A stretch of 33,957 nucleotides of DNA. Source: a virus. The position numbers were made by a program, and so were the translations under genes. Every line of letters starts with the position of its first letter. Positions within the stretch are counted from its first letter, which is position 1. The DNA is taken from positions 1-33,957 of IMG/VR virus record IMGVR_UViG_3300008627_000030. One strand, 5' to 3'. This document shows, in pieces, positions 6,768-22,729 of the stretch. The notes under the pieces were generated by a model. The model saw nothing but the letters and a program-made list of their open reading frames with translations. It was not told the origin of the DNA and did no database searches.

Positions 6768-7547
6768 TCATATATCATCTTCTGGTGGAGTTGTTTCTGC
6801 ATACAAATCTTTTTTAAGATGTTGTCCTAAACCCGCAAAAAATTTATACTCAGGCTTCGCCCCATCCTTTGTATTATATTCTGCATCCCAATATAAAGTA
6901 AATGAATTAGGTCGTCTATTGTTATAATGATGATTAAATACTTTCCAATCTATTGTTATACTTAAAGCACCATCACCTTCCATATAATACTCTAGATACC
7001 CAGGAAATATAACTAGCATATTTTCTTTTATTTCTAATTCCCATTTTGTTCTTTGACTTGGTGAGGGTGTGTTTATAAATCTCTCTTGTGCCATTATTGA
7101 TCTATGTCTTGGATCTCTAAAGATCATACGATTACCATAAGTAGAATACCCTGGACAATCTTTTTTCTCAGGAACTTTTAAGAAAAGCATACTGCACCAA
7201 TCAGTTCCTTCATGGGTTTGTATAGCGTTGTCTCGACCTATTTTCCATTTTACTGTCCTAGGCCATAGTCCTGTCGCTTCTTTATAATCACTTGCCTCAC
7301 AAATATATTCAAATCTATTATGAATATATCTAATCACTTCATCAAAATGTTCACTTGGAAATGGTGCCCAATCTAAATTTCCGTCCTTATCTCTAGGAAT
7401 ATCATTTTCGTCGATTTCAAAATCATAAATCATATCATCATCAGCTTCTTGAAATCTATCTAGTAAATATGGAGTATCATAAATTTGTGACATCCATGTA
7501 GCATCTTCATGCCATACCTCTGTAGGAAATATTAAATCTCTTTTCAT
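6768..7547 (-). CDS. Degenerate 2OG-Fe(II) oxygenase-like protein
   Basis: A 259-residue protein, the last of four consecutive oxygenase-like genes. A first-metal-motif-like segment QTHEGTDW has H112 and D116, followed by CSMLFLKVP. The second core segment MLVIFPGYLEYY (177-188) aligns with the ILFPSxLxH segment of its neighbours, but the position of the distal metal histidine is held by tyrosine or glutamate. The 2-oxoglutarate arginine is also not evident in GALSITIDW. It may have lost catalysis and kept the fold, or may use other ligands. It has an acidic N-terminal insertion (30-60) and a C-terminal extension of about 50 residues. A good ribosome-binding site (GAGGTG) lies upstream and its ATG overlaps the previous gene by 4 bases. 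Family assignment is by pattern and context. Confidence 0.6.
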   Translation of the reverse strand: MKRDLIFPTEVWHEDATWMSQIYDTPYLLDRFQEADDDMIYDFEIDENDIPRDKDGNLDWAPFPSEHFDEVIRYIHNRFEYICEASDYKEATGLWPRTVKWKIGRDNAIQTHEGTDWCSMLFLKVPEKKDCPGYSTYGNRMIFRDPRHRSIMAQERFINTPSPSQRTKWELEIKENMLVIFPGYLEYYMEGDGALSITIDWKVFNHHYNNRRPNSFTLYWDAEYNTKDGAKPEYKFFAGLGQHLKKDLYAETTPPEDDI

Positions 7548-8077
7548 TCTTTCACCTCTAAATCAAACGCCATAATCGTTCTTCTATTTCTACTAAAATT
7601 TGGATTTATAAAATGTATTAAAAAACTCGGGAAAAGTATCATCGTACCTTCTTCTGGCATAAAGTCCATAAAAACTGCCTGATCTGTTATAGGATCATTC
7701 CATGGTTGCATTGCTTGTGTACCAGAATGTTCTTTAGGATTAAAATTAACATATAGTATACCACTAATCCCTACAGACCTATGCGTATGCGGTACTTGAT
7801 AATCTCCATAATGATACTCTACAGTCCATACATCTAAAACTGAAATTTCTGTTAAGCTCGTTTCTTTTAAAAACTCTGTCAATTCTGACTCAAAAAGTTT
7901 ACAAAAATCTTCTTTATAAAATCTCTCTTGTTCTGGAGCTCGATCTGTTAAGAAAGTCATATTAGACCTCCTTATCAATTCAGTCTTATTAATCCAATTG
8001 TAAACTTCTTTTTTCTTTTTCTTCCAATCATTTACTTGATAACGAAAAATTGGAATTTCAAATAATATCTGATGCAT
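7544..8077 (-). CDS. Putative 2OG-Fe(II) oxygenase (TIGR02466-like)
   Basis: A 177-residue protein with the double-stranded beta-helix pattern: GDYQVPHTHRSVG supplies H97-x-H99, followed by a strand GISGILYVNF. The distal segment MILFPSFLIHFINPN supplies H155, and R165/R166 are placed to bind 2-oxoglutarate. This layout (PHxH, then FPSxLxH, then arginine) is that of the putative oxygenase family TIGR02466, frequent in marine T4-like phages. The substrate is unknown. The N-terminal 30 residues are lysine-rich (KKKKK at about 19-23). It overlaps the preceding oxygenase by 20 bases and the following one by 4 bases, so the genes are translationally coupled. Confidence 0.72.
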   Translation of the reverse strand: MHQILFEIPIFRYQVNDWKKKKKEVYNWINKTELIRRSNMTFLTDRAPEQERFYKEDFCKLFESELTEFLKETSLTEISVLDVWTVEYHYGDYQVPHTHRSVGISGILYVNFNPKEHSGTQAMQPWNDPITDQAVFMDFMPEEGTMILFPSFLIHFINPNFSRNRRTIMAFDLEVKE

Positions 8078-8630
8078 TATAAACGTATTTTCCTCTTATG
8101 TCGTGAGCTGTTGTTAAATTTCCTACAATAGAAAGTCTATCTTCATCTATAGTATGTTCAGGTACAGAATGTTTGAGATGAGCAGGAAAAAGAACTAAAT
8201 CTCCTTCTTTAGGATACCATACTTCTCCTAAATCTTCAAAAATTAAAGGAGCTGATCCTTCTGGAGCTTTAACATAATATACAAATGAATATACTCCCGG
8301 CAAATGGTCATGTGAAGCTGTATAATCTCCCTTATGATAAATGTTTCCCCATAGAGCCGTAATAACCCAATCAAAAACAGAACCATCTATCGCTGGTCTA
8401 TTTAAATATGGTAAATGATTTACAACAACATCTACACCTAAATTTCTAAAACTTTCATACTCAGTTAATAACCATTTTGTCATTTCTGCCTTAACATTCG
8501 TTTTTTTATCCTGTGCATCTCCAGATTCTCGTATTTGTTTTTCAAACAAATCATTATCATATCCATACAAATTTTCTATGTATATTGACATAGACACTTT
8601 AGGTTTATATTCTAACTCTATTGTTGGCAT
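8058..8630 (-). CDS. Putative 2OG-Fe(II) oxygenase (TIGR02466-like)
   Basis: A 190-residue protein with an intact apparent active site: ASHDHLPG gives H107-D108-H109, followed by YSFVYYVKAPEG. LVLFPAHLKHSVPEH gives H154, and R165 in EDRLSIVGN is the expected 2-oxoglutarate ligand. An acidic IFEDLGEVWYP segment lies between, as in related proteins where it carries IxFxD. It is the second of four consecutive oxygenase-like genes between gp47 and gp46, sharing about 20 bases with the next. Its start at 8630 lacks a clear ribosome-binding site and follows a 26-base gap, the longest inside this block. Confidence 0.75.
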   Translation of the reverse strand: MPTIELEYKPKVSMSIYIENLYGYDNDLFEKQIRESGDAQDKKTNVKAEMTKWLLTEYESFRNLGVDVVVNHLPYLNRPAIDGSVFDWVITALWGNIYHKGDYTASHDHLPGVYSFVYYVKAPEGSAPLIFEDLGEVWYPKEGDLVLFPAHLKHSVPEHTIDEDRLSIVGNLTTAHDIRGKYVYNASDII

Positions 8631-8656
8631 TATAATTTAAATCCATATTCTGAATA

Positions 8657-9349
8657 TTAATGTTCAGCTGTTCGCAATGTTATATTTCCTGCTGCAGAAA
8701 TCCTTTCACCTTCACTCTTAAAATCAGATACATAATGTCTTACCCAAGAAGGAAAAATAATTACATCTCCAACTTCTGGCATTGTACGGCTTCTGCCGAT
8801 AGAAAATGGCATATGTTCTCCATAATCAAACATTATCATTCCGGGTCCTTCATTATTATGAACACCCCGCATATCTTCATTTTCCTTTTTTAAACCCTCT
8901 GGAACTTGTAAATATATTACAAAAGATATATCACCTGTATGGTGATGTGGTGGATTATATTCTCTAGGTTTTTGAAAATTAATCCAAAAAGAATCTAACA
9001 CCCATTCTAGATTTACTGGAATATTCCTCTGAGAGCCCAGTGTTTGTGACGTTCTTTCATAGATATGTTCAAAACTATCTTCTTTATAGTCTTTTAATCC
9101 TTCAAGATATAAATTTACATATGGGGTAAATTTAGGTACAAACCAATCATTCCAATTTTCATACCAATATTCTTCATCTATTTGTCCTGCCAAATTCGCT
9201 CTTGCATCTAATTCGTCAAATCGTTCTGTATCATTTCTCTGTTCAAAAGCTTTTTCTAATAACTCAGCTATAAAGGATGAGTCTTTTATTCTAGTATGTA
9301 TAAGATATGGACCCCAATACCAAAACCAATAATCTATACTTTCTGTCAT
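8657..9349 (-). CDS. Putative 2OG-Fe(II) oxygenase (TIGR02466-like)
   Basis: A 230-residue protein and the best family match of the block. NPPHHHTGD (133-140) carries the first metal ligands, among H135-H137, and is followed by the strand ISFVIYLQVPEG. VIIFPSWVRHYVSD carries H205, and ERISAAGNI carries R216, the likely 2-oxoglutarate-binding arginine. The pattern NPPHxH, then FPSWxxH, then RISxxxN is characteristic of TIGR02466-type proteins. The N-terminal half is tryptophan-rich (WFWYW near residue 8, and WYENWNDWF at 62-70) and probably family-specific. The ATG overlaps the gp47 stop (ATGA), giving tight coupling. The substrate is unknown. Confidence 0.8.
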   Translation of the reverse strand: MTESIDYWFWYWGPYLIHTRIKDSSFIAELLEKAFEQRNDTERFDELDARANLAGQIDEEYWYENWNDWFVPKFTPYVNLYLEGLKDYKEDSFEHIYERTSQTLGSQRNIPVNLEWVLDSFWINFQKPREYNPPHHHTGDISFVIYLQVPEGLKKENEDMRGVHNNEGPGMIMFDYGEHMPFSIGRSRTMPEVGDVIIFPSWVRHYVSDFKSEGERISAAGNITLRTAEH

Positions 9350-10413
9350 TCTACTTCACACGCCTCAGTATATAAATTTTTTAATAAGCGTATCAACTTA
9401 TTTTTATTAAGTGCTTGACTCTCAATCTCTTCCACATATTTATTCAACAATGTCATCGTATCTTCACCTACACTCACAATATCATCGGCAATTTGATTTG
9501 GGTCAAGATCACTAAAATCTTCAATAATTTTTAATTCAAGAAAATTACCTTCATTATAACATCTATCTATAAATCTGTCAAATGTATAAAAATCATTTTT
9601 CTGGAGAACAAATATTTTAACATAACTTTCTTCATATTCTGTGATATCCATATTAATCATATCATCACAATGCTGACTGTCATCATAAAAGATTTTCTTG
9701 AATAGCCGATTTGGATTTTGAAAAAACTCTACCTCTCTAGTTTCTGTATCAAGAATATGAAAGCCTTTCTTACTTGCATAATCGTTCCATGTTATCTCAT
9801 ACGGCGCACCAAGATATCTTATATGACCGTCATCCTGTTGTTTGTGAAAGTGACCAGAAAACACACGTTCAAATCGTTTAAAGTGCTTGCGTTCTATACC
9901 ATCATCACAGTAAACATCATCTAACATCTCTGCACCTTGTAGTGGTAAATGTCCCATAAGAAAATCAGCTTTGGCTTTAGATATAATTCTTAACGACTCT
10001 GCATACTTATCAGGTGCAATCCATGGAGTCATCATTACATTAAGACCATCAAAGTTTATCACCTCCGGTGTATCTTCATATAAATGTATATTATATTCTT
10101 TACAAGTAAGAGACATAGAATTTACTTTATTAGTTGTCTTATAGTAACAATCATGGTTACCAATTAAGACATGAAGATCAATATCACGTTCCTTGATAGG
10201 ATCAAAGAACATCTCTTTAGCTAGTTTAAGAGAATTATAGTTAGCGTACTTCCTACGATCAAACACATCACCCAAATGCACCACCGTTGTAATTCCTTCC
10301 ATATCAAGTATTGGAAAAAAAGTTCTTTCGTAGAATCTTCGTTGGAATTGTGCAAAGGAAAGATTATCATTCTTACCTCCAAAATGGGTGTCTGTTATTA
10401 ATGCTATTCTCAT
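9346..10413 (-). CDS. 47: Recombination endonuclease subunit gp47 (Mre11/SbcD-like)
   Basis: Nuclease subunit partnering gp46. The calcineurin-like phosphoesterase motifs occur in order: D8-T-H10, GDVFDRR with D49, GNHD (N86-H87-D88), GH at 154-155 and GHFH (187-190). These supply the two-metal active site. Length is 355 residues, against 339 in T4. The start overlaps the gp55 stop by 4 bases (ATGA) and the stop overlaps the first oxygenase. Known role of the complex: 5' end resection at double-strand breaks for recombination-dependent replication and degradation of host DNA. Being co-translated downstream of gp55 fits an early or middle operon. Confidence 0.95.
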   Translation of the reverse strand: MRIALITDTHFGGKNDNLSFAQFQRRFYERTFFPILDMEGITTVVHLGDVFDRRKYANYNSLKLAKEMFFDPIKERDIDLHVLIGNHDCYYKTTNKVNSMSLTCKEYNIHLYEDTPEVINFDGLNVMMTPWIAPDKYAESLRIISKAKADFLMGHLPLQGAEMLDDVYCDDGIERKHFKRFERVFSGHFHKQQDDGHIRYLGAPYEITWNDYASKKGFHILDTETREVEFFQNPNRLFKKIFYDDSQHCDDMINMDITEYEESYVKIFVLQKNDFYTFDRFIDRCYNEGNFLELKIIEDFSDLDPNQIADDIVSVGEDTMTLLNKYVEEIESQALNKNKLIRLLKNLYTEACEVE

Positions 10414-10901
10414 TTATCATCCGAGTCGGAAAAATTATACTGCTGTAAAAAATCCATGAACTGTTTTTGATAAACACTTTCATCATCATGGTCTTGTGTA
10501 ATTATCATATCCTCTATATTAGAAGTTTTTAAAAGTTTATCTTTTATTTTTGATTGCTTCTTTTCTCTAGTTATTCTACGAACAAACGCAAAATAAATTA
10601 TCTGTGTGAAATATGAAAAAGGGTTCTTTGATTTTTCAGGATCAAAATTATCAATATACTGAAGGCAATTTTCTATACCATCAGATATCATTTCTTCCCT
10701 ATAAGTATAATTAATAAAATTGGGACGATAAGAGAGATGATTTGCAATTTTTAAAAAACACTCTCCTATGTAATTTGTTACTTGTGGTCTAGCTTCATCG
10801 TTAGCCTCAGCCTCTAAGACTGAAGCTTTCCAATCAATCATCGCCTGTAAAAATTCTTTATTATTTACATAATGAGGCTTCTTTTGTTTGTCAGTTGCCA
10901 T
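10410..10901 (-). CDS. 55: Late-transcription sigma factor gp55
   Basis: Divergent sigma70-family factor that directs host RNA polymerase to TATAAATA late promoters, working with gp45 and normally gp33. The N-terminal YVNNKEFLQAMIDWK and the central EEMISDGIENCLQYIDNFD closely follow T4 gp55. The next segment, NPFSYFTQIIYFAFVRRI, matches its NPHAYITQACFNAFVQRI. Length is 163 residues, against 185 in T4; the reduction is in the C-terminal part. The start at 10901 has GGAG 6 bases upstream, and that GGAG can pair with a CTCC just before it. Consistently, about ten TATAAATA elements occur at late gene boundaries in this window. gp33 is not recognisable here. Confidence 0.93.
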   Translation of the reverse strand: MATDKQKKPHYVNNKEFLQAMIDWKASVLEAEANDEARPQVTNYIGECFLKIANHLSYRPNFINYTYREEMISDGIENCLQYIDNFDPEKSKNPFSYFTQIIYFAFVRRITREKKQSKIKDKLLKTSNIEDMIITQDHDDESVYQKQFMDFLQQYNFSDSDDK

Positions 10902-11737: not shown

Positions 11738-12187
11738 TTAGTGAAGTTTAGATTTATCCAAAGGAGAAAAAGGTATAACATTAGAATCATCTTTTAACTC
11801 ATCCGTTAATTCTTTTAAATCTTTCAGCTGTTGCATTTTATCTTTAACTTGTTCTTCTGTCTTGAGTTGAGTTTTCTCAGCCACAGTCAATTTTTCACAA
11901 ATATTCTTGTAATAAAAACTTACTTCAGGAGCTAAATTAGCCATAGTTAAAATTTTCCGTTTAGATATCATAAAGTGAATATCGTTTGTAAAATTCATCC
12001 AACGAGCAAGACCTGTTTGACTTACAATTTCACCCAATTCTTCATGGTACTGTTGATTCTCAGTAATGGCCATAGGTCGTTCAACAATGAAAGCATCCTT
12101 ATACTCTGTGATAATTTTGCAAATAACATCTTCTCCATTATCCATTTTAATAACTTTAAAGGGGTTTGTAATTTGTTGATTTTCCAT
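11738..12187 (-). CDS. Sm-like small protein, conserved T4-like hypothetical
   Basis: A 149-residue protein. Residues 10-45 (FKVIKMDNGEDVICKI, then AFIVERPMAI) resemble the Sm1 segment of Sm/LSm folds: a strand, a D/N-G turn, then two strands. Similar proteins sit next to uvsW in marine T4-like phages. Residues 95-140 are charged and probably helical. The function is unknown; RNA binding would be inferred from fold only. The ATG at 12187 was chosen, not an upstream in-frame start, because homology-like sequence begins there. A late-promoter variant CATAAATA ends only 5 bases before this ATG and no Shine-Dalgarno sequence is present, so translation may be leaderless. The promoter overlaps the uvsW stop. 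Confidence 0.65.
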   Translation of the reverse strand: MENQQITNPFKVIKMDNGEDVICKIITEYKDAFIVERPMAITENQQYHEELGEIVSQTGLARWMNFTNDIHFMISKRKILTMANLAPEVSFYYKNICEKLTVAEKTQLKTEEQVKDKMQQLKDLKELTDELKDDSNVIPFSPLDKSKLH

Positions 12188-12191
12188 AATA

Positions 12192-13652
12192 CTATTTATG
12201 TAATTTAACAGGTATAATATCGTAGTCAAACTCTTCCTTATTATACAAGTTAATTCTCTCCTTAAAATGTTTAAGTGTATAATTATCTCTACCATTATAA
12301 CTCAAATCATCTATAATGTCAAATACGTTTAGTTGCTTTTTATCTTCTGCGGTACGTAAGCCTCTACCTATAGATTGTAAAACTTTTATTTGTGATTTGT
12401 AAGGAGATCCAAAGACAATATTATGCAGGCGTTTAATGTTAATACCAGTAGAAAATACTCCATAAGATGCTATTATGATAACATTTTCTCCATGCTCTGC
12501 AAGATACCTTATTTTTTCTCTATCTTCTGTAGGCGTTTTTCCATATACTTTATATATCTCCTTATTAGAATTTGATAACAGGTCTATTATATTATCTAAT
12601 TGGGATATGTATCTGCACAATACTAAAGTATTACCTTCTTCATATTCTACTAACTTTGCAATAAATTTATTCCTAGATTCGTCTAGTGCAAGCAAATCTA
12701 ATTCTAAATCATAACTTCTAGGAATTCGTTTATGTTTAGGATGTTCTAATACTAAACAACGAATATGTAAATTGGATAAGTGATTATCTTCAATTAGTTT
12801 TGATGTTGTTGTTACTTGTTCACATTTTGCAAACAATCCCTCTAATACTAATTGGTGCACTTCTATACCGTCTAGCGTCCCTGTAGTACCCACACGAAAC
12901 TTACAGTCAGACAGCTTAGTCATTATACCAGTCAAACTCTTTGCCTTGGCTAAATGACATTCATCTATAAAAACTGCACCAAACTGTTTGAAATAACTTT
13001 TAGGCAGTTTGAAAATGGACTGCCATGTAGAAATCACAACATCTTTAGGTGTATTTTTGTCAGACCCCGCATATAACTTATGACAATGCACATCTGGAAA
13101 CCATTTGTATTCTGCAAAGTCGGAATACAACTGTTCTACAAGGCTTGTAGTAGGAACTACTATAAGTATTTTTGAGTTGGATAAAATCTCGACATAGTAT
13201 CGAACTAAAACATATATAATAAAAGATTTGCCAGACCCAGTAGGAGAAAGAATAAGGCCGCGGTCATTATTAATAATGTGGTGTATTGCATCTAACTGAT
13301 AATCTCTAACTTTAATTCCTTTTGAAATCTTATTGACAAATTTTTTAACAAGCTCTTTATCAATATCTCGTTCAGTATAAGGTCGACCGTAGAACTCATT
13401 ATTTACAGTTTCGATTCTATATCCTTGTTTCTCGCAAAACTTTTTGACATAAGGAAATAATCCCACAAATATTTTACCAGTAGCAGGAGAGAATAAACGA
13501 ATACGACCATCCCACAAACGATTCCTAACCGACGGCATAAAGCTTGCATTTGGTACCTCGAAGGTAAAAAATTCCGAAAGTTCCTTAGCGATGGCCGGTT
13601 CAGTTTTAATTCGGAGATAGACTTCATTAAATTTTTCAATTTTTACTTCCAT
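12192..13652 (-). CDS. uvsW: Recombination helicase UvsW
   Basis: Superfamily 2 helicase that reverses forks, unwinds D-loops and R-loops, and in T4 shifts replication from origin-dependent to recombination-dependent mode. Motifs: Walker A SPTGSGKS (136-143), Ia VVPTTSLVEQ, DECH box (230-233), III GTTGTL, V ASYGVFSTGI and VI QSIGRGLR (426-433). The N-terminal domain includes NRLWDGRIRLF, matching the T4 NWDGRIRL segment. Length is 486 residues (T4: about 500). The ATG at 13652 was chosen over an upstream TTG. A 5-bp hairpin (13654-13658 with 13664-13668) sits directly against the ATG, and the ribosome-binding site is weak, so translation may be limited or coupled to uvsY, 33 bases upstream. 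Confidence 0.95.
   Translation of the reverse strand: MEVKIEKFNEVYLRIKTEPAIAKELSEFFTFEVPNASFMPSVRNRLWDGRIRLFSPATGKIFVGLFPYVKKFCEKQGYRIETVNNEFYGRPYTERDIDKELVKKFVNKISKGIKVRDYQLDAIHHIINNDRGLILSPTGSGKSFIIYVLVRYYVEILSNSKILIVVPTTSLVEQLYSDFAEYKWFPDVHCHKLYAGSDKNTPKDVVISTWQSIFKLPKSYFKQFGAVFIDECHLAKAKSLTGIMTKLSDCKFRVGTTGTLDGIEVHQLVLEGLFAKCEQVTTTSKLIEDNHLSNLHIRCLVLEHPKHKRIPRSYDLELDLLALDESRNKFIAKLVEYEEGNTLVLCRYISQLDNIIDLLSNSNKEIYKVYGKTPTEDREKIRYLAEHGENVIIIASYGVFSTGINIKRLHNIVFGSPYKSQIKVLQSIGRGLRTAEDKKQLNVFDIIDDLSYNGRDNYTLKHFKERINLYNKEEFDYDIIPVKLHK
12193..12200 (-). promoter_or_regulatory. Late-promoter variant CATAAATA before Sm-like gene
   Basis: Minus-strand CATAAATA, one mismatch from TATAAATA, ends 5 bases before ATG 12187 and overlaps the uvsW stop codon. 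The arrangement (octamer, GTATT, ATG) is nearly the same as at 14787. Confidence 0.5.
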
Positions 13653-14238: not shown

Positions 14239-14246
14239 TATTTATA
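14239..14246 (-). promoter_or_regulatory. Late promoter (TATAAATA) upstream of uvsY
   Basis: Exact octamer overlapping the TAA stop of the tube-like gene at 14242. The resulting transcript would carry a ~125-base leader before uvsY. Confidence 0.7.
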
Positions 14247-14781
14247 GTGTTAAGAATTCGTAATACGAATATGCAAAAGTAACATCAGCTGTAAGATATA
14301 TAGCATCTGTTTCTTGTGCAGTATATGTTAATCCACTCAAATTTAATGGAAATGAATCATGCAAAGTAACTCTAACAACAGGATTATTTTTATTACTTAA
14401 TATACTTATATGAATATCACTATATAAATTTCTATCACCTGTTAAATTAACATTATCCACCCTTGATTTTTTATTAAATTGATTATGATTTGACGGAGTC
14501 CCTATATTAACTATCCAATCAAAAATTTCTTGATAATTTGATAACTTTTCATCCACTATAAATGACATGGTAAAATCATCAAATGTCATAAGATCACCTA
14601 CCATAGGTATATTAGCAAGGGATGTTGGTCTATCAAATCGACCTACACCTACTCCAGGCAAAGTTAAAGTAGTACAAAAATATTGTGACAAAGGAAAATT
14701 TCCCAATGTAACTAGAAATTGACTAGACTGTGCATAGTCAAATGTATCAGGTTGCCTTCTTAAAGAGTCTATTGTTGCCAT
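14242..14781 (-). CDS. Tail-tube-fold structural protein (possible gp3 tail-completion protein)
   Basis: A 179-residue protein placed between gp23 and uvsY, where marine T4-like phages usually carry gp3, the tail-completion and sheath-stabilising protein. Its sequence resembles a tail-tube fold. FLVTLGNFPLSQYFCTTLTLPGVGVG (split across residues 23-48) and the following AxIPxxGDLxTFDDFTMSFIVDEKLSNY mirror the gp19 layout: extended strands, a loop, then the WxxxV/M strand and a helix leading to I/W. A conserved-looking IFDWIVNIGTP ends the helix. I cannot decide between gp3 and a tube paralogue. It has an exact late promoter ending 5 bases before the ATG and no Shine-Dalgarno sequence, so a leaderless late mRNA is likely. 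Confidence 0.65.
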   Translation of the reverse strand: MATIDSLRRQPDTFDYAQSSQFLVTLGNFPLSQYFCTTLTLPGVGVGRFDRPTSLANIPMVGDLMTFDDFTMSFIVDEKLSNYQEIFDWIVNIGTPSNHNQFNKKSRVDNVNLTGDRNLYSDIHISILSNKNNPVVRVTLHDSFPLNLSGLTYTAQETDAIYLTADVTFAYSYYEFLTL

Positions 14782-14786
14782 ATTAC

Positions 14787-14794
14787 TATTTATA
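14787..14794 (-). promoter_or_regulatory. Late promoter (TATAAATA) abutting the tube-like gene ATG
   Basis: Exact octamer; only GTAAT separates it from ATG 14781. By T4 spacing, transcription would begin at or next to the A of the ATG. Confidence 0.75.
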
Positions 14795-14818: not shown

Positions 14819-14848
14819 AAAAAAATACCCCGCCGAAGCGGGGTATTT
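14819..14848 (-). terminator. Strong Rho-independent terminator after gp23
   Basis: Perfect 11-bp stem (14823-14833 with 14838-14848) capped by the tetraloop TTCG on the minus strand and running into a run of seven T. It lies 36 bases after the gp23 stop. C(UUCG)G loops are among the most stable known, fitting the end of the most highly expressed structural gene. Because the stem begins in A residues, it may also work weakly on the plus strand. Confidence 0.92.
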
Positions 14849-16222: not shown

Positions 16223-16230
16223 TATTTATA
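16223..16230 (-). promoter_or_regulatory. Late promoter (TATAAATA) for gp23
   Basis: Exact octamer 31 bases before the gp23 ATG, leaving a leader of about 26 bases that contains AAAGGAGAT. Confidence 0.82.
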
Positions 16231-17632: not shown

Positions 17633-17640
17633 TATTTATA
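17633..17640 (-). promoter_or_regulatory. Late promoter (TATAAATA) for gp22
   Basis: Exact octamer 30 bases before the gp22 ATG, followed by AT-rich leader and AGGAG. Confidence 0.8.
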
Positions 17641-18510: not shown

Positions 18511-20055
18511 TCAACTATTTATAATTTGTTGTTGCTCTTCTTCATTATCAGCTGTCATTGTCATATAATCATCTTCTCCACCACCTGCCGTATCCTTTTC
18601 TTTATCAATTTGAGCATCGAGTTCTTGCATTTCTTTCTCAGATTGTCGCAATATGTTTCTACGCACCCATTCATGTGAATAATATTTACCGATATAATCT
18701 TGAATTCTATCCATATGATCCAATCTATCCCCAAGAATCTCTAGGTCTTTCAATTCTGAAAAATGATTATCTTCTAGAAAATCATAAGAAACATTTTCTT
18801 TAATATTTTCCCAATCTTCTGATGTGATAATACCCTTGAGTATTAATTGAGTTCTCAATATATCATGGAAAAGAGAAGCAAACTTTTTACGAAGCTTGCC
18901 TACAAATTTTGTGAATTTAACCTCATCTCTAGTAATCTCTGCTGATCGACCTAAATTAAAACCACTTTCAGCCTCCATTCTAGAAATAGGAACATTTAAT
19001 GAACGATAAAGTTTATCTTGAAAATACTTGATATCTTCTAATTCGCCAAGATTCTGGCCACCGGGTAGTGTTGTTATTTCTGTACCCCTACCCCCTTCCC
19101 TCCGAGGTAACCAAAAATCTTCAAGCATCGACATTTTACTCCGATCATCTCTAATTTCACCTGAACTAGCATCGTAAACAAGTTTGTTTCGATACCGATT
19201 CATAATGTCTTTGAGATATTGTTCTGCCTTTTGCTTAGGTAAATTACCAACATCAATGTAAAATATTCTACGCTCAGGTGCCCGTGAGATACGATAGATA
19301 ACTACCGCATCTTCAATCATTCTTAATTGATTTACAGGCTTAATTGCCTTGTGTAGGTGTGAATAAACTTGATTCGTTGTCGGTTCGTATAGACCAGATG
19401 TGATATATGCGATTGAATCTTTGGAGACAGGTAATCCTTGTCCTGCATTACTCCTACCAGCTATTCCTGGATAAATTCCTTCTTCACTATATAAAAAATA
19501 TTCTCGTACAGCTTTAACAAGTTCAGACGCCGATGGCGTACTTCCTTTTTCAATCTCTCTTACTTTCTTGATATTTCTAGGATCAATATAACGTAATTCT
19601 AGAACACCTTTTGAAGTATCTTTTTCATCTACCAATTTATGGAAATAAATTCTACCGTCTATATACCATCTCTTAAAGAGTTCATGGGATTTATTATTCC
19701 AATGAAGCATCTTCAGAATATGGTCAAACTCTACTTGAATTTTTTTCTTAATTGATGATGAAAAATCCACATAATCTAAAGAAATTGATACGGAAGGCTG
19801 ATCTTTATTAGAAATAATAGCTTCATTAACTATATCTTCTATTGCCTGATCTGCTTCAGGATGTTCAGCTGTTGCTCTATATTTCTTAACTAGGTCGAAA
19901 TCATTTTTTGGAGTTGCTTCGGCACCATAATATTGTCCAAAAAAGCCTGCTGCAGCTCCAATGTCTAAAGAACCATCATCGGGCGAAGGAGCGACAAAAC
20001 TTTTCGCATTGTCGCTCCCTGCCCGTTTAATCGTAAAACCAAATAATTCTGCCAT
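18511..20055 (-). CDS. 20: Portal protein gp20
   Basis: Dodecameric portal at the head vertex through which DNA is packaged. Length is 514 residues (T4: 524). Conserved stretches include AEHPEADQAIEDIVNEAI near residues 60-80, ELRYIDPRNIKKVREI, RIFYIDVGNLPKQKAEQY and FNLGRSAEITRDEVKF. It begins at ATG 20055, only 8 bases after an exact late promoter octamer, with no Shine-Dalgarno sequence between, so it may be translated from an almost leaderless mRNA. An inverted repeat overlaps that promoter. The end overlaps the gp67 promoter. Confidence 0.96.
   Translation of the reverse strand: MAELFGFTIKRAGSDNAKSFVAPSPDDGSLDIGAAAGFFGQYYGAEATPKNDFDLVKKYRATAEHPEADQAIEDIVNEAIISNKDQPSVSISLDYVDFSSSIKKKIQVEFDHILKMLHWNNKSHELFKRWYIDGRIYFHKLVDEKDTSKGVLELRYIDPRNIKKVREIEKGSTPSASELVKAVREYFLYSEEGIYPGIAGRSNAGQGLPVSKDSIAYITSGLYEPTTNQVYSHLHKAIKPVNQLRMIEDAVVIYRISRAPERRIFYIDVGNLPKQKAEQYLKDIMNRYRNKLVYDASSGEIRDDRSKMSMLEDFWLPRREGGRGTEITTLPGGQNLGELEDIKYFQDKLYRSLNVPISRMEAESGFNLGRSAEITRDEVKFTKFVGKLRKKFASLFHDILRTQLILKGIITSEDWENIKENVSYDFLEDNHFSELKDLEILGDRLDHMDRIQDYIGKYYSHEWVRRNILRQSEKEMQELDAQIDKEKDTAGGGEDDYMTMTADNEEEQQQIINS
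18516..18523 (-). promoter_or_regulatory. Late promoter (TATAAATA) for gp67-gp21
   Basis: Exact octamer 18 bases before the gp67 ATG; it overlaps the last codons of gp20. GAGGAG follows directly, so the leader is about 13 bases. Confidence 0.8.
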
Positions 20056-20063
20056 AGTATAAC

Positions 20064-20071
20064 TATTTATA
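20064..20071 (-). promoter_or_regulatory. Late promoter (TATAAATA) for gp20
   Basis: Exact octamer; GTTATACT separates it from the gp20 ATG. The predicted leader is only about 2-3 bases. Confidence 0.78.
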
Positions 20072-20092
20072 TCACTTCAAAACTGTGATATA
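20068..20092. repeat. 8-bp inverted repeat overlapping the gp20 promoter
   Basis: TATATCAC (20068-20075) and GTGATATA (20085-20092) are perfect reverse complements around a 9-base loop. The lower arm shares four bases with the TATAAATA element. It could be an operator, or an RNA hairpin at the end of the gp18-gp19 transcript; no U-run follows on the minus strand. Confidence 0.55.
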
Positions 20093-22721: not shown

Positions 22722-22729
22722 TATTTATA
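22722..22729 (-). promoter_or_regulatory. Late promoter (TATAAATA) for gp18-gp19
   Basis: Exact octamer 64 bases before the gp18 ATG. It diverges from the plus-strand octamer at 22768, leaving 38 bases between the two. Confidence 0.8.

Follow-up and report, generated by a model that had tools for sequence, protein, structure and literature searches.

Late promoters placed on start codons in a lineage of marine T4-like phages: predicted leaderless or near-leaderless late mRNAs

The late-promoter octamer of gp3 in this T4-like marine phage ends only five bases before the start codon, which raises the question of whether some late mRNAs begin at their own ATG and, if so, how they are translated. 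The original prediction held that at three late genes (ATGs at 14781, 12187 and 20055) the octamer stops 5, 5 and 8 nt short of the start codon, that none of them has a ribosome-binding site, and that leaderless translation would be a control mode of selected late genes, possibly those for low-copy parts. The window analysed here is the complete IMG/VR record of 33,957 bases, a phage fragment whose late genes lie on the minus strand. The placement of the three octamers matched exactly on that strand, and no Shine-Dalgarno (SD) sequence was found before any of the three window genes.

Short-gap genes of the window and their neighbours

The three genes, with the elements that surround them, are as follows, the gap being the number of bases between octamer and start codon.

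14823..14848, minus strand: intrinsic terminator (11-pair stem and T tail) between gp23 and the promoter of gp3, immediately upstream of the latter
14787..14794, minus strand: late-promoter octamer TATAAATA of gp3; predicted +1 is the A of the ATG at 14781 (register of -13 to -6 from PMC1524935)
14782..14786, minus strand: 5-nt linker GTAAT of gp3, with T at -1, read from the sequence
14242..14781, minus strand: gp3, tail completion/terminator protein, 179 aa (phrog_45, 1.5e-33), predicted leaderless
12193..12200, minus strand: late octamer CATAAATA before the 12187 gene, within the last uvsW codons; gap 5, linker GTATT
11738..12187, minus strand: Sm-like-domain protein, 149 aa (PF16243, 3.3e-9); gap 5, predicted leaderless
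20064..20071, minus strand: late octamer TATAAATA of gp20; gap 8, spacer GTTATACT and then the ATG at 20055, from the sequence
20068..20092, minus strand: inverted repeat TATATCAC-N9-GTGATATA, read directly from the sequence, its end within the gp20 octamer
18511..20055, minus strand: gp20, portal protein, 514 aa (phrog_213, 1.8e-206); predicted leader of 0-3 nt, without SD

Cyanophage homologues of gp3 are also annotated as gp3, and the stop codon of uvsW (TAG) occupies 12192-12194, so that the 12187 ATG starts 4 nt past it. Any function of the inverted repeat at gp20 is inferred only; a similar repeat made of different bases (ATATCGT/ACGATAT) was noted in L271.

Neighbouring late genes had been described as leadered with clear SD sequences, and this holds for all four, whose gaps range from 18 to 63 nt and whose SD sequences are of the GGAG type. 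The octamer TATAAATA upstream of the window's late genes marks these sites as putative late promoters of the T4 type, and a candidate for the corresponding sigma factor is present.

16223..16230, minus strand: late octamer of gp23; gap 31, SD present
17633..17640, minus strand: late octamer of gp22; gap 30, SD present
18516..18523, minus strand: late octamer of the small gene that precedes gp21 and holds the gp67/68 position; gap 18, SD present
22722..22729, minus strand: late octamer of gp18; gap 63, SD present
10410..10901, minus strand: probable late sigma factor gp55; weak PF04542 (Sigma70_r2) match of 6e-4, below the curated cut-off, in the position that gp55 has in Melnitz and HTVC008M

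The octamer is moderately enriched in the window (13 occurrences against 5.55 expected, a count as high being reached in 1 of 100 shuffles). Taken alone, three close gaps among about ten promoters make a weak case that is only suggestive, and the data from relatives decide. Elsewhere on the minus strand, 6768-9349 carries a cluster of three 2OG-Fe(II) oxygenase-like genes (8657-9349, 8058-8630 and 6768-7547, the last below the Pfam cut-off).

Spacing across relatives, gene families and lineages

Spacing from NATAAATA to the ATG was tabulated for open reading frames of at least 80 aa in a first set of 80 IMG/VR relatives, fetched by means of gp23, together with the window; gaps of 4, 5 and 6 nt occurred 0, 55 and 1 times, respectively. 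A larger set, comprising the relatives and pelagiphage-type genomes and counted by unique ATG starts, yielded 123 cases at gap 5, 43 at gaps 6-8 and 11 at gaps 9-13. The distribution is therefore bimodal, with a short-gap peak, a nearly empty zone that corresponds to leaders of 4-8 nt, and then a broad class of SD-leadered genes; eight control octamers of the same composition produced no gap-5 peak. Start codons at gaps 5-8 are almost exclusively ATG (166, with 2 GTG and 2 TTG), gap-5 linkers follow the consensus [GA]TA[GA]T, and 98% of gap-5 sites have a pyrimidine at -1, compared with 56% of leadered genes. None of the linkers of 161 short-gap sites contains an SD sequence, and 75% of leadered genes carry one. 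Wrongly called start codons were considered and ruled out, as for 57 of the 66 ATGs at gap 5 no other start codon lies in frame between the ATG and the preceding stop, and homologues can be aligned from their first residue. The three-site observation is thus confirmed as real, and the sharp peak at gap 5 lends strong support to the leaderless reading.

Because relatives share ancestry, gap 5 was also tested inside single genomes, whose genes are unrelated. It is over-represented in HTVC008M (P=1.5e-10), Mosig (5.9e-5), a 177-kb IMG/VR genome (1.5e-3) and Melnitz (0.013), and no significant excess was found in T4, Syn9, S-PM2, P-SSM7 or P-TIM40; these P values rest on an assumption of uniform gaps and are only approximate. 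When pooled, gaps of 5-8 account for 29/114 in marine-group genomes versus 1/124 in T4 and the cyanophages. No open reading frame of at least 60 aa has NATAAATA at gap 5-8 in T4, Syn9, P-SSM7 or P-TIM40; S-PM2 has one, probably by chance, and T4 has one case with CTAAATA. In HTVC008M (L102), two consecutive gap-5 starts occur at 75559 and 75830, a small open reading frame (AATAAATA) being followed by gp3 (ACTAAATA), with a separate putative late promoter before each.

The short gap is sorted by gene family. It was seen, in at least some phages, in gp2, gp3, gp25, a gp48-like cap, gp20 and gp17, and it is most uniform in gp2 (DNA end protector, phrog_429), where the gap between octamer and ATG is 5-8 nt in all 60 unique homologues and none has an SD sequence; these homologues were gathered by similarity to one gp2 protein whose gene had previously been seen to have the short gap. 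This recurrent family of 185 aa was considered as gp53, a candidate excluded by PHROGs in favour of a gp2-type DNA end protector. Gap 5 is found in 36/56 homologues of gp3 and in 6/13 of the 12187 family; gp25 has gap 5 in HTVC008M and gap 8 in Mosig and G001, and is SD-led in Melnitz; and gp17 has gap 5 in G001 and G002. No short gap was seen in homologues of gp18 (0/46), gp19 (0/78) or gp23 (0/77; 0/201 together). By the copy numbers of T4, gp2, gp3, gp20, gp25, gp48 and gp17 are low-copy parts and gp18, gp19 and gp23 are abundant, and the idea that low-copy parts dominate the short-gap class fits this division, insofar as general knowledge of T4 copy numbers may be carried over. The portal gene, named as leaderless from the outset, is a divided case: the missing SD sequence and the predicted leader of 0-3 nt uphold the claim for the window, and only a minority of relatives (11/91, at gap 5 or 8) share the arrangement.

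A gp23 tree built by a quick method places four cyanophages outside a branch with 100% support, within which the window groups with HTVC008M, Mosig and Melnitz; Melnitz and Mosig are also its best cultured gp23 matches. Judged from these sequences, the arrangement belongs to a marine sister group of the cyanophages that includes cultured T4-like phages of Pelagibacter and Methylophilales (Kyanoviridae). It is not a general trait of T4-like phages, which is ruled out by the T4 and cyanophage genomes, nor is confinement to Pelagibacter phages supported, given that three genes of Melnitz, a Methylophilales phage, show the arrangement (its gp3 being SD-led). Within the sister group, short-gap gp3 is scattered and requires at least 10 changes on the gp23 tree; gp3 uses an SD sequence in the Melnitz clade, and in two near relatives of the window (L011 and L030) the octamer is missing before gp3 and kept before the 12187 gene, so the short-gap trait is not essential. 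One of the two, L030, retains gap 8 before gp20. In L052, L088 and Melnitz (L153), an octamer with an ATG 5 nt on is followed by an SD sequence and then the true start codon of gp3; this may be a leftover of the leaderless arrangement or an intermediate stage.

Predicted start sites, translation and competing explanations

Late octamers of T4 span -13 to -6 relative to the transcription start (PMC1524935), and a gap of 5 would accordingly put +1 on the A of the ATG. A variant, CTAAATA, has been described for Aeh1 late promoters (PMC1524935) and is also found at gap 5 here, for example before gp3 of HTVC008M, whose annotated start is that ATG. By analogy with T4, both for the activity of the octamers as promoters in these phages and for their register, transcription of the three window genes is inferred to start at, or no more than about 3 nt from, the first base of the ATG, no RNA 5' ends being available; gaps of 6-8 would give leaders of 1-3 nt unless the start site shifts.

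The preferred reading, to which we assign a probability of roughly 0.83, is that T4-type (gp55-dependent) late promoters placed on the ATG produce leaderless or near-leaderless late mRNAs across this lineage. The placement is read from sequence; start and translation mode are inferred, without RNA 5' ends or protein yields. The claim made for selected late genes is supported by the gap of 5, the near-exclusive use of AUG, the absence of SD sequences, the pyrimidine at -1, the sparsely occupied zone of 4-8-nt leaders and the terminators before gp2 and gp3, although RNA 5' ends remain unmeasured. A terminator lies upstream of 47/60 gp2 genes and of 29/37 short-gap gp3 genes, whose mRNAs should consequently begin at the adjacent promoter, and in the absence of an SD sequence initiation at the 5' AUG is the simplest way to translate an RNA that starts at the ATG. 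The mRNAs of gp3, the 12187 gene and gp20 would then use 5'-terminal AUG initiation (70S/IF2-type) and not SD pairing. Read-through RNA, presumed to have no usable ribosome-binding site at the ATG, would not be translated, only RNA that begins at the ATG would be, and expression of each gene may thereby be strictly conditional on its own late promoter. The modest yield expected of such initiation would suit parts needed in few copies (gp2, gp3, gp20, gp25, gp48 and gp17), with the abundant gp18, gp19 and gp23 keeping their SD leaders.

The most durable alternative, unlikely as it appears, is that longer read-through mRNAs are translated by SD-independent initiation or by termination-reinitiation coupling, and that the octamers mainly serve downstream genes. 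Read-through RNA probably exists at gp20 and the 12187 gene, neither of which has an upstream terminator, and the position of the 12187 ATG 4 nt after the uvsW stop makes coupling to uvsW on such RNA possible; in Mosig, Melnitz and G001, moreover, the 12187 homologue directly follows uvsW without an octamer. Nevertheless, read-through predicts neither the exact 5-nt gap, nor the pyrimidine at -1, nor the scarcity of GTG and TTG, and gp2 and gp3 are mostly preceded by terminators. A different start site, for example one further upstream than in T4, would give these mRNAs leaders and is very improbable: the start sites of this lineage are unmapped and gaps of 6-8 do occur in gp2 and gp20, but a start further upstream would coincide with the -10 element or lie beyond it, the gaps of SD-leadered genes in these phages are at least about 14 nt, as in T4, and no SD sequence lies upstream of the short-gap ATGs. 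Coincidence, with octamers near ATGs that are not promoters, is scarcely credible and already refuted as a general explanation, for although TATAAATA is common in AT-rich DNA, as its expected count in the window illustrates, the control octamers, the within-genome tests and the unbroken gp2 series rule out AT-richness, and only single sites could still be chance.

A parallel that supports conditionality on the gene's own late promoter, as proposed in the leaderless reading, comes from leadered homologues of gp20, 25/51 of which have a stem between promoter and SD sequence (2.0 expected), against 2/33 for gp23 and 0/29 for gp18; because the gp20 homologues are related, this count overstates their independence. 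By analogy, such a stem would block translation of read-through RNA and not of RNA from the late promoter. In L281, L293, L304, L034, L309 and others, the octamer in the 40 nt upstream of gp20 forms part of an inverted repeat, CCTACT...AGTAGG, and the SD sequence is contained in the 3' arm of this repeat.

Known systems and phage-encoded bS21

Leaderless mRNAs, of which lambda cI is the standard phage example, are translated via a 5'-terminal AUG and tolerate kasugamycin, and those of phages are usually cited as single cases. The genes described here share with them an AUG at or near the 5' end (predicted), the lack of an SD sequence and a strong preference for AUG over GUG and UUG; they differ from the lambda cI type in making up a class of late virion genes, in which the arrangement is conserved family by family within a phage lineage and is part of the phage-sigma promoter itself, with 5' ends that remain predicted. 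With the late promoters of T4 (gp55/gp33/gp45), they have in common TATAAATA and its variants NATAAATA and CTAAATA, as well as a gp55 candidate, whereas the placement of NATAAATA at gaps of 5-8 in the marine group is not found in T4. T4 also blocks certain ribosome sites with hairpins (e.g., at gene e), so that translation is limited to RNA made from the late promoter; the logic is shared, and a promoter:SD stem precedes many leadered gp20 homologues, but the leaderless genes have no SD sequence at all. A literature search, which did not reach most subscription papers, turned up no earlier account of leaderless late mRNAs for this phage group.

Should the predicted start sites be correct, two modes of late translation would operate side by side in one marine phage lineage, sorted by gene family, and the promoter itself would decide which RNA is translatable. 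Conserved in many distant relatives and absent from T4 and the cyanophages, the arrangement looks like a genuine and testable second mode of late translation initiation, as far as sequence comparison can indicate. It would help to call start codons in ocean viromes more accurately and may account for the bS21 encoded by phages, which is so far unexplained.

A bS21 gene is present in HTVC008M, Mosig, Melnitz and the IMG/VR genome G001, which are all four of the complete short-gap-using genomes here, and is absent from ten other complete T4-like genomes searched and from the 35.6-kb fragment G002. As all four belong to one lineage, the association may be ancestry alone; the co-occurrence is suggestive and confounded to that extent. 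The bS21 of HTVC008M enters E. coli ribosomes (PMC6375957), phages with bS21 express it late (PMC9723584), and phage bS21 has been proposed to redirect ribosomes to phage mRNAs (PMC6375957; PMC9723584); a term search found no mention of leaderless mRNAs in either paper. Since E. coli 61S particles without bS1, uS2 and bS21 favour leaderless mRNAs (PMC4929434), an effect of bS21 in either direction is possible. That phage bS21 retunes host ribosomes late in infection toward leaderless or SD-poor phage mRNAs, coupling a takeover in cis (promoter on the ATG) with one in trans, is a doubtful proposal that we raise only as a speculation.

Host genomes were also sought via bS21, and no Pelagibacter was among the matches. 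Four phage bS21 genes (L347, L348, L349 and L350) have no late octamer upstream, and in Melnitz (L349) the gene follows an apparent tRNA gene. A 10.8-kb contig from a Planctomycetota MAG (L351) encodes a bS21 that is 78% identical to the phage protein and is probably a phage contig misplaced in a bacterial bin.
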